From an uncultured Pseudomonadota bacterium (GTDB taxonomy: Bacteria > Pseudomonadota > Gammaproteobacteria > Methylococcales > Methylomonadaceae), in assembly GCA_903931355.1 (NCBI GenBank), contig CAIZCB010000247.1, positions 1 through 10,912 on the forward strand: DNA of 10,912 nt, in the 5' to 3' direction. Position 1 is the first letter of the stretch. Every line of letters starts with the position of its first letter. Below, one piece after another: positions 5,135 to 10,912 of this stretch. The position numbers and the translations under genes are program-made. Below the pieces are notes generated by a model. That model was not told where the DNA came from and did not search any database. It saw nothing but the letters and a program-made list of their open reading frames with translations.

Positions 5135-7129
5135 TTAATAACTTAATCTAAAACCCAGTTCAGCACCCCGTCCTGCTTCCGGTGCAAAATTACGCAGGTA
5201 AGAGCTTGCGTTACGAATATTTTCATTCAGCAAGTTATTACCCTTGGCAAACAGCATCAGTTTTGTGTTTTCTGTCGCTTTGATTTGATAGTTAAGCCCA
5301 ACATTGAGTAAAAAATAACCGGCAGTTGTGGTGTCAAACTCGCCAATATAGCTTTGATCATCAGCTCGGGTCAGGCGCAGATAACTGGAAAATTTCTTGT
5401 TGCTGTAATCCAGTTGCACACCATAACGCAAAGGCGGCATTCTGGGAACATTGGCACCGTTACGGAATTCACCACGGGTGTAATCGCTGAATAAGGTCAA
5501 ATCCAGCAAACCATAATGATTTTCCATCATCGGCAAAATCAGCTTCGCTTCATAGCCTTTAAAAATCGCATCCGCTTGAGCACTTTGTAAAACCGGCACA
5601 CTGTCGACAAACTCACCGTTTCTTTGCTGATAGATGTAATCGCCCGCCCAATTATGGAATAAATCAAACTCGGCTCTTAGCCAATCGGTTTTAAACCGAT
5701 AGCCTAAATCAAGGTTATAAGCGGTTTCTAGGCCCAGATTGAGATCGCCGTGTTCATAACTACGAGTGGCATCATGGTAGCCATTGGCTAATAACTCCTG
5801 AACTTGTGGCGCTCTTGAGGAGCGGGTCAACGCCAAATTCAAGCTGTTGCGTTGATCCAATTTCCATAACGCCGATGCAGAAGCGCTGACTGGGGTGTAG
5901 TTCAAATTTGCAAAACCATCCGGTTGAATACTGGTTGGTTCAACGCGAGTACCGAATTGATAAGTGAAGCTGCCCAGCTCAAACGACTCTAAAACGAATG
6001 CACTGTAACTATTGATGTCGGAGCGCGGGACGATACTTTCGCCCGTTAATTTTTCGATGGCGTTAAAATCGCTGGCTTGAGCTTGAAAGCCAACTATACC
6101 GTGCACAATACCAAAGTCTTGATGATCAATTTCTAAACGGCTTTCATAGGATTTGTTGCTGTAAAAAGCCCCAGCTTCGCCATTGGCAATCTCGGTATGT
6201 TGATAGTCGGTGTAGCCAAGGCGAGTGCGAATATTTTTAGCGAACTTAAATGGATTATTTAATTCACTTTTGAAATCGTATTTTTGCTGGCGTAAGGCGA
6301 TACGGACTTTTTCGTCGCCGTTGCCATTGGGCGCAATGCCGTAATTGTTATCAAGATTGTTAATTGAGATGCCAGCAAAACCGCTTGTTGCAACCCAAGA
6401 TAATCCCGCCGAACCGCTGATAGCTTCTGCGCCAGTGTTGTTCAAATAGCCTTTGGGGTTATCGACCACGGTTAGCGATGGATCAGTTATCCCAACTTTA
6501 GCGCTATCTATACCGCTTCCGCCGATGTCCATATTATTGCGGTGTCGATAAAAACCATCGAGGTGATAGGCCAGTTGATTTTTGCCACCTTCAATTTTCA
6601 TGGTGGTACTGGTTTCATCGCTAGTTGAGTCGAAGCGTTGTTCGAGTCCGCCGCCTAATACTTTGTCGGTAATTCTGTTGGGAATTCGGTTATCAACCAC
6701 ATTGACGATACCGCCCATTGCACCGCCGCTATATAGCAATGCCGCTGGGCCACGTAATACTTCAATTCGTTCAGCGAGTAAAGGCTCGACGCTGGAGGCG
6801 TGATCTGGGCTAATCGAAGAAGCATCGTTGCTGCCGATGCCGTTGCTGAGCACTTTAACTCTTGCGCCAGATTGACCTCGGATCACCGGCGTTCCAACCC
6901 CAGGCCCGAAAGATTGGTTGCTGATGCCTAATTCATTTTTCAGTGTGTCGCCGATGCTGTTGCCGATTTTCATGGCTAATTCGTCGTCACTTAACACAGC
7001 GTTTGGCAAAGTGATTTGTGATTGAATTTTGGGTGGGGTAACTATCACGGCTTCAAGCTCGGTTACAGAGCTTTCGAAAGCTAATGCGATTGAAGGAACT
7101 AATAACAACGGTACAGCGTTTTTTAGCAT
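5135..7129 (-). CDS. znuD: ZnuD-like TonB-dependent outer-membrane receptor
   Basis: This is a 664-residue outer-membrane beta-barrel receptor. Residues 1-17 form a signal peptide likely cut after ALA. A TonB-box-like stretch (EAVIVT) follows at 26-31. The plug domain contains PVIRGQSGARVKVL at 81-94, SPDH at 107-110 and RIEVLRGPAALLYSGGAMGG at 121-140. The barrel ends with FRLSY, the C-terminal aromatic expected for insertion. The plug sequence, the segment VRIALRQQKYDFKSEL, and the late NLLNENIRNASSYLRNFAP resemble the zinc receptor ZnuD more than siderophore receptors. In ZnuD the SPDH aspartate and histidine are thought to help bind zinc. The loop after NNYGIAP, which I recall as histidine-rich in many relatives, has no histidine here. 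A Zur-type operator lies upstream and a COG0523 GTPase downstream. Zinc is the best guess, though another metal complex is possible. Confidence 0.88.
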   Translation of the reverse strand: MLKNAVPLLLVPSIALAFESSVTELEAVIVTPPKIQSQITLPNAVLSDDELAMKIGNSIGDTLKNELGISNQSFGPGVGTPVIRGQSGARVKVLSNGIGSNDASSISPDHASSVEPLLAERIEVLRGPAALLYSGGAMGGIVNVVDNRIPNRITDKVLGGGLEQRFDSTSDETSTTMKIEGGKNQLAYHLDGFYRHRNNMDIGGSGIDSAKVGITDPSLTVVDNPKGYLNNTGAEAISGSAGLSWVATSGFAGISINNLDNNYGIAPNGNGDEKVRIALRQQKYDFKSELNNPFKFAKNIRTRLGYTDYQHTEIANGEAGAFYSNKSYESRLEIDHQDFGIVHGIVGFQAQASDFNAIEKLTGESIVPRSDINSYSAFVLESFELGSFTYQFGTRVEPTSIQPDGFANLNYTPVSASASALWKLDQRNSLNLALTRSSRAPQVQELLANGYHDATRSYEHGDLNLGLETAYNLDLGYRFKTDWLRAEFDLFHNWAGDYIYQQRNGEFVDSVPVLQSAQADAIFKGYEAKLILPMMENHYGLLDLTLFSDYTRGEFRNGANVPRMPPLRYGVQLDYSNKKFSSYLRLTRADDQSYIGEFDTTTAGYFLLNVGLNYQIKATENTKLMLFAKGNNLLNENIRNASSYLRNFAPEAGRGAELGFRLSY

Positions 7130-8396: not shown

Positions 8397-10608
8397 ATGT
8401 GGTTCAAACGCTTAGCCGCACGACCAGAACAAAGACGTTTTGTTAGAAGTCCGCATCCGGTTGGTGGTGAAGCGCCGATTCGTTTTGAAGTATTTAATAC
8501 CGAACGATTGCAACAACATGCAATCAGTTTGGCCGATGCACAACGTAAAACCTGTTTTAAAAAAGGTCAAAAACTCATTCCACGGGTTCGCGAGAATGCC
8601 GTGGTTTTACTGAATGCTTATCAAGCGGTTGATGCCGAAGTGCGTGGTCAACACGCGATTACCCCCGCTGCGGAATGGCTGTTGGATAATTTCCACGTCA
8701 TTGAAGAGCAGTTAGCTGATATTTATGCCGATTTACCCGAAAGTTACGCCCGAGAATTACCAAAATTAGAAGACGGTATTTTTGCGGGTTATCCACGAGT
8801 GTATGGGATTGCTTGGGCATTAGTCGCTCATACCGACAGCCGTTTTAATCCCGATTTACTGCATTTGTTCATTAGCGCTTATCAAAGCGTGACGCCTTTG
8901 AGCTTAGGCGAGCTATGGGCGATACCGATTACTTTACGCGTATTGTTAATCGAAAATCTGCGCCGTTTAGCGGTGGGGATTATGCGTTCGCAACACGGTC
9001 GGCGCTTGGCGGATCAATTTGTCGATCACATTGAAAAAATCATTGCCCACAGCGAGCGAGCTGATCCGCCGATTCCAGCCGCCAAATTACCCGAAGCCTC
9101 TTTGCGTCAGGCTTATGCGGTACAAATTCTGCAACGCTCACATGATCCACATCCATCAGTCGTCATTTCTTTAGATTTTTTGACCGATTGGCTGATTCAA
9201 GAAAATCTCAGCATCGACCAATTAGTACACAAAGAACACGCCGAGCAGATTGCCGATAATTTGACGGTCCGCAATATCATCACCAGTATGCGCGCCATTT
9301 CGGTGTTCGACTGGACGCAATTTGTCGAACAAGTCAGCTTGGTCGATGCTTGTTTGCGTCAGCATGATGGCTATTTGGCGATGGATTTTTTAACTCGCGA
9401 CCGCTATCGCCATGCCATTGAAGAATTAGCCAAACGCTCGGCTTATTCTGAACTAGACATCGCTCGTCTGACTTTAAACCAAATTGAGCGAGCCAAAATT
9501 CAAATCAATTTTGATCAACGCCAATTGGAGCCGGGTTATTACCTGATTGGAGCAGGGCGCTATCGGTTTGAAGAGCAAGTGGCTTATCGACCGTATTTCA
9601 AACAACGCTTACTTCGGCTTTATATCAAGTATTCTGGCTTGGCTTATATCAGCAGTTTGCTGGCTTTAAATCTGTTATTACTGGGCTTGCCGTTAGTAGT
9701 AGCGAACAGTGCGGGGATTAGCGATGTTCATCTGCTGATACTAGCTTTATTGCTGATTTTTCCGGCTTCGGATATTGCGGTTGGGATTATTAATCAAATC
9801 ATTATTACTGGCTTGCCGCCCTGTCATATGCCGCGTTTGGAATTTAAAGACGGGGTGCCTGAAGCGTTTAGTACCTTTGTGGTGGTGCCGACTTTATTTA
9901 GCGCTGAGCAGGATGTTAAGCAGCAAGTTGAGCAAATGGAAATCCGTTATTTAGCCAATCCCGATGGCGCGGTGCGCTTTGCTTTGCTTTCCGATTGGGT
10001 CGATGCCGACCATGAAAGCTTGCCCAAAGATCAAGTATTGCTGAATTTGGCGATTAGCTTGGTTAATGCCTTGAACACTAAATACGCCAAACCACTGTTT
10101 TTTGTTTTTCATCGCAAACGCTTATGGAATCCCAGCGAAGCTAAATGGATGGGCTGGGAACGCAAGCGCGGTAAGTTGCATGAATTTAATCGTTTATTAC
10201 GCGGCGCAACCGATACCACGTTTTTGCCGATCAATGGTCAACCAGCCACCGCGCCAAGCGGGGTTTGTTATGTAATCACGCTGGATGCGGATACCAAATT
10301 GCCGATGGGCGTGGTGTCGCAATTGGTGGGGGTAGCGGCTCATCCCTTGAATAGTCCGGTGTTGGATTGCCAGTGCCAACAGGTTGTCAACGGTTATGGG
10401 ATATTGCAACCACGAGTCACACCGACTTTGCCGCATCGCCATGAGCGTTCGCTATATCACCGGATTTTTGCCGGAGCCAGCGGCACCGATGCCTACGCCA
10501 GTAGTGTTTCCGAGGTTTATCAGGATTTGTTTGGGCTAGGTACTTATAGCGGCAAAGGCTTATACCATGTCGATACCTTTCAAGCCGCGCTGGCAGGGCG
10601 AGCACCTG
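8397..10608 (+). CDS. ndvB: Cyclic beta-1,2-glucan synthase NdvB, N-terminal part, broken at a junction
   Basis: About 737 residues are readable from the ATG at 8397. The family usually exceeds 2,500 residues, with a GT84 glycosyltransferase domain followed by GH94 phosphorylase-like domains. The N-terminal part reads RRFVRSPHPVGGEAPIRFEV and continues with the conserved EEQLADIY and LPKLEDGIFAGYPRVYGIAW. Two membrane segments lie at about 411-433 and 440-460. The catalytic region shows WERKRGKLHEFNRLLRGA from W587 and the DxD-type LDADTKLP with D630 and D632. It then reads GKGLYHVDTFQAALAGRAP, after which homologues continue EN-x-LLSHDL. Here the similarity stops and GC rises to about 73%. 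The enzyme would use UDP-glucose to make periplasmic cyclic glucans for osmotic adaptation. It follows DUF3309 by 22 bases, with only a weak GAG as ribosome binding site. The arginine-rich continuation of this frame to the window end is not part of the real protein. Confidence 0.88.
10583..10608. other. Composition junction, probable assembly misjoin
   Basis: Left of here the ndvB frame is intact and matches the family. Right of here that frame becomes arginine-rich nonsense, while the frame beginning at 10585 (CCG CGC TGG CAG GGC) has almost exclusively G or C third bases. The roughly 25 bases in between read sensibly in both frames, as expected if a short shared word joined two unrelated sequences. 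Confidence 0.75.
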
Positions 10609-10912
10609 GTGGCCACGCTGGCCTGGGAGACCGATGCGCGGCTGGCGCTGGAATACACCGTCTCCGGCGGCGATCCCGTCGACGGCGTGATGGAGATCGA
10701 GATCGCCGACGCGGAGATGTGGCTGCTGGCCGGCGGCACGGCGCTGGGCGTCGACCCGTCCGATTGCGACCGTCTCGTCACGTCGCCGAACCATCTGGAG
10801 ATCCTCCGCGACGATCGGCCGCGGCGGGCGATGGTCCTGGCCGGGGCGATCGCCCGCTACTCGGCCAGCCGCGCGCGGGCCGAGATCGCCGCCGCCGGCA
10901 TCTGTCCCTGGG
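10585..10912 (+). CDS. Partial coding sequence from a high-GC genome, unrecognised
   Basis: The open frame runs to the window end without a stop, about 109 codons, starting PRWQGEHLVATLAWETDARL. Nearly all third positions are G or C, the signature of real coding sequence in a genome of about 70% GC. An in-frame ATG at 10567 lies on the ndvB side of the junction and is probably not its start. Visible segments include LALEYTVSGGDPVDGVMEIE, WLLAGGTALGVDPSDCDRLV and AGAIARYSASRARAEIAAAG. I do not recognise a family. It has no functional link to the neighbouring genes if the junction is artificial. Confidence 0.6.

Follow-up and report, generated by a model that had tools for sequence, protein, structure and literature searches.

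A switch from an ndvB-like gene to viral sequence at a contig end in a draft genome, read as a very probable assembly chimera

The window analysed here is the whole of contig C247 (10,912 bases), part of a draft genome (G000) of 2.29 Mb that lies in 525 contigs and is 84% complete. Close to its right end a bacterial gene, which is taken here to be ndvB, gives way to GC-rich DNA read in another frame, and this raises the question of whether the junction exists in an organism, through gene transfer or the integration of a virus, or came about when the sequence was put together. Three stretches bear on the answer:

8397-10602, plus strand: 5' part of an ndvB-like gene (cyclic glucan synthase type); the frame has no stop as far as 10607 (737 codons), with 10603-10607 of doubtful origin.
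10582-10608, plus strand: stretch fitting both parents and presumed to be the bridging word; 10582-10602 (21 bases) is best supported, and 10608 (27 bases) is the outer limit.
10603-10912, plus strand: foreign end, which by comparison with six IMG/VR relatives is the interior of a viral open frame of 671-811 codons, without a start or stop of its own.

The change in composition at this junction is abrupt. GC content is 73.3% over 10621-10912, where the hand count of 214 of 292 bases made in the sequence-only reading was reproduced exactly, and 47.2% over 8397-10583; immediately ahead of the junction (10400-10583) it is 50.5%, in agreement with the figure of about 50% given earlier. When 8397-10912 was searched for a single GC change point, the best one fell after base 10583, with a log-likelihood ratio of 42. 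The frame that takes over had been described as having nearly pure GC third positions, and over 10609-10911 third-position GC is indeed 92% in the frame of 10567, as against 46% in the ndvB frame. For a control, 100 of the 525 contigs were fetched; 44 of these read as N and were excluded, and 56 were measured (331,066 bases, including contig C137, described below). Non-overlapping tiles of 300 bases on the 56 contigs (n=1,074) have a mean GC of 44.1%, a standard deviation of 4.8 points and a maximum of 57.7%, and the excess of a contig end over the rest of its contig is at most 11.5 points at their 112 ends, as against 28.2 points at the right end of the window. The GC step is real and beyond chance. 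No second end of this kind was seen among the 56 readable contigs of the 525, so such ends do not visibly recur in the assembly.

Relatives of the host side were searched for in 40 genomes, 24 from the same genus and 16 from the same order. The ORF starting at 8397 (8397-10607) is matched in 16 of the 40, the nearest being genome G004 (locus L004), with 96% protein identity. The open frames run to 2667-2970 codons in 15 of the 16 matched relatives, one of which has a TAA inside the match, and the G004 frame is cut by the end of its own contig soon after the match. Compared base by base, the window and L004 share 565 of the 608 bases in 10000-10607; after 10608 they share 53 of 211, which is chance level. 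The conserved protein had been said to stop at AALAGRAP, where homologues would go on; the reading does stop there, and [DE]NTQLSHD follows the break point in each of the 11 relative loci fetched. The host sequence itself, however, probably ends already at 10602, before the alanine codon of GRAP is complete, since the codon at 10602-10604 is GTN (valine) in 11 of 11 relatives and GCA (alanine) in the window: the window equals L004 base for base over 10591-10602, and at 10603 it has C where all 11 relatives have T. For the half of ndvB in the window, Pfam returned nothing above the cut-off (one match lies at E 0.25), and neither half of the gene matches NCBIfam.

Two further observations concern the host. 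Elsewhere in the window, 5135-7129 on the minus strand encodes a TonB-dependent receptor that resembles the zinc receptor ZnuD, with a score of 389 bits that is well below the curated cut-off of 950 for the ZnuD model. The genomes of the genus (G000, G001-G024) span 2.0-5.7 Mb; G004, the nearest by ndvB, has 2.8 Mb at 99% completeness, as against 4.4-5.7 Mb in many others at 99-100%, so the branch of G000 and G004 may have a small genome.

The remainder of ndvB, which the earlier reading expected on another contig beginning with an EN-x-LLSHDL segment, was found in the same assembly. The 71 residues that come next in L004 returned one match when searched against the draft genome, C137:1-213, at 99% identity. 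Contig C137 (6,634 bases) starts at the codon expected next: from base 1 onward it reads DNTQLSHDL, in a frame that is open from that base for 2,155 codons, up to a stop at 6468, and 737 + 2155 codons make 2892, the size of the frames of most relatives. The true host continuation is thus present, uninterrupted, elsewhere in the assembly (G000:C137:1-6468), and its domains, two GH94 supersandwich stretches, a GH94 catalytic domain and a glycoamylase domain, fit the name presumed for the gene. With the rest of the gene lying on C137, in frame to its stop, ndvB is divided between two contigs, and nothing indicates that it is interrupted in the organism.

On the foreign side, Pfam gave no match for the 115-codon ORF that starts at 10567, and the piece is unmatched in the 24 same-genus and 16 same-order genomes. 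A search of 5.8 billion proteins returned one relative (P0001), with 82% identity over 39% of the query, and an alignment-based protein search returned three environmental proteins only, P0001 among them. The protein P0001 is 100% identical to sequence on a viral contig (L019), and viral contigs were reached both through it (two) and through alignment A2 (six, including those two): IMGVR_UViG_3300031241_000009 (L019), IMGVR_UViG_3300035696_001570, IMGVR_UViG_3300004774_000478, IMGVR_UViG_3300032516_000058, IMGVR_UViG_3300036975_000021 and IMGVR_UViG_3300033150_000877. Their proteins are 36-79% identical to the window, the match beginning at residue 5 or 6 in the ORF starting at 10567. At the DNA level L019 is the best match, with 242 of 304 bases identical, ungapped, over 10609-10912 (about 80%), and only 47 of 182 over 10400-10581, before the switch. 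In all six relatives the match lies inside a stop-to-stop frame of 671-811 codons, 514-653 of which are upstream and absent from the window; the window holds viral residues only from the equivalent of KPRW on, and its frame meets a stop soon upstream. The sole confirmed contig matches of the foreign part are viral contigs (from IMG/VR, a viral collection).

To call the end part of a 73% GC genome, as had been done, is correct for the local composition and overstated for the genome. GC content is 58-68% in the six viral loci (5.7-10.3 kb) and 58-72% over their homologous 304 bases; the best relative reaches 72% over the homologous stretch, but 63% across its 10-kb locus. Named phages (50,697 records) gave no match for the piece in the window, for P0001 or for a 702-aa viral protein, and two copies of the viral protein had no Pfam or PHROGs match when scanned. 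The long frames of this protein lie at 3213-5288 in L019, at 3180-5288 in L020 and around 5001 in L131-L136, and five adjoining ORFs in L020 are likewise without a PHROGs match. The protein may be part of a block of structural or tail-region genes in a group of viruses not yet described.

Horizontal transfer from a high-GC bacterium was also considered and set aside, after a scan of genome contigs gave 148 pattern matches, none of them a relative. This negative is weak evidence of absence, because a scan of the same kind with a nearly identical query missed the viral contigs too (43 pattern matches, none confirmed).

Where the two parents meet, a short stretch can be read as either. In the earlier reading both frames share a short word, its length put at roughly 20-26 bases; by position it comes to 21-27 bases, starting at about 10582. 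Viral similarity begins at 10582 when the L019 locus is compared by BLAST with the draft genome, and 10582-10593 is identical, ungapped, in L019; if bases are uniform, the probability that 12 bases agree at a preset position is about 4^-12 (simple arithmetic). Next after those 12 bases L132 carries CAG, and L131 and L132 together support 10582-10596. The viral relatives back the word over 10582-10596 only, and 10597-10602 would be viral by position alone, the exact donor not being in hand. On the other side, base 1 of C137 equals window base 10608, and the two diverge from 10609. The preferred extent of the word is 10582-10602 (21 bases), in which case five host bases would be missing between the window and C137. 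If the alanine in the window were a true host change, the word would extend to 10608 (27 bases), and C137 would abut with one shared base. The choice between 21 and 27 bases leaves the odds of the readings unchanged. With bases taken as uniform, a 2.29-Mb genome and 1 Gb of other sequence should by chance have about 1,041 words of length 21 in common and 0.25 of length 27, which makes such a coincidence unremarkable when a sample is large, at 21 bases more than at 27. Both lengths also coincide with smallest k values of common assemblers, and this was given no weight.

The order of host gene, word and viral DNA is also the pattern of site-specific integration, as at a prophage attachment site in a protein-coding gene, where the host gene, a short core and viral DNA follow one another much as they do in the window. 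Prophage or other viral DNA could then be truly integrated in the ndvB of some cells of the population, the word serving as attachment core and C137 coming from uninserted cells as the empty-site allele. This is very unlikely on several counts. In six of six viral relatives the word falls within a long open frame that continues through it without a break. Of the viral DNA searched (10.3 kb), nothing further is present in the assembly, which is, though, only 84% complete: when a 691-aa viral protein and these 10.3 kb, from one relative, were searched against it, only the end of the window matched. The GC contents are 73% and 45%. No integrase was recognised in nine viral ORFs (parts of two viral contigs) scanned against PHROGs, where one weak match was returned (E 0.0003), to a PHROG of unknown function. 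A core in mid-gene in all six relatives, the lack of a recognised integrase in the nine ORFs and the missing viral remainder together disfavour true integration and set the window apart from a prophage site. Fainter still is the chance that the junction is real in the sense that a virus of the group of the six IMG/VR contigs, a group that had no match in the named phages searched, entered ndvB through a 21-27-base core within its own long gene; such an integration would split a host gene and a viral gene.

The foreign part, at only about 300 bases, is comparable in length to one read or insert, which would also suit a chimeric DNA molecule formed in library preparation, by ligation or an amplification jump, and then sequenced and assembled. 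Amplification jumps also prefer shared words. The true path, however, would usually prevail over a single chimeric molecule, and C137 starts at the switch or within six bases of it, which is a sign of a branch in the assembly graph; an origin in library preparation accordingly carries little probability, as slight as that of the mid-gene viral entry.

It is very probable that the window is an assembly chimera, in which a bacterial gene and a co-sampled virus were joined through a short word presumed common to both. Each side has its own match among independently known sequences: L004 at 565 of 608 positions and then 53 of 211, L019 at 47 of 182 and then 242 of 304. With one switch point and a separate parent on either side of it, the preference for a false join over a real insertion, already voiced in the sequence-only reading, is upheld. 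Two parents, a switch at the word, an orphaned continuation, an end piece of about read or insert length and no further match in the assembly to the viral stretch that was searched make a false join much the best reading. A relative of each parent and the true continuation were directly observed, as was the position of the switch, with an uncertainty of a few bases.

The events behind the join may be pictured as follows; what we infer is exactly how far the word extends, that the virus was present in the same sample, and which step of the software was at work. The true bacterial path would lead from about 10602 (or 10607) to base 1 of C137. The virus was probably in the same sample, and its long gene would contain the same word of 21-27 bases. 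After this word the graph would have branched, and the assembler would have followed the viral branch for some 300 bases, about the length of one read or insert; the foreign piece sits at the very end of the window. The true continuation would have been left as a separate contig that starts at the branch or within six bases of it. Many graph assemblers leave an overlap of k-1 between such contigs, and its near-absence here differs from that: C137 overlaps the host part by at most one base, or is separated from it by a gap of five bases if the host ends at 10602.

Chimeric contigs arising from k-mers shared between genomes have been described as a failure mode (PMC7299287). In metagenome assembly a chimera of this kind joins unrelated parents, changes abruptly in GC and frame, lies at a contig end and has its continuation elsewhere, as in the window; no difference was found, the second parent here being a virus for which the searched collection of named phages gave no match.

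Some results run counter to an assembly chimera. A virus with the exact word was not found, L019 matching the first 12 bases and L132 the next three. The left end of the window served as a control, and there the absent N-terminal part of prmB, searched for with the sequence of a relative, was not found in the draft genome. These results (no exact donor, almost no overlap, no second chimera and a failed left-end control) do not favour a biological junction over an artefact.

Suspicious contig ends can thus be tested without reads, by means of relatives of both parents and an orphaned continuation. For this bacterium, the ndvB product of 838 codons that is predicted here, with its arginine-rich tail, is to be discarded, as is any phage gene in this bacterium, or link between host and virus, that is taken from the window. 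The junction, probably an artefact rather than a gene transfer, is biologically of no consequence.
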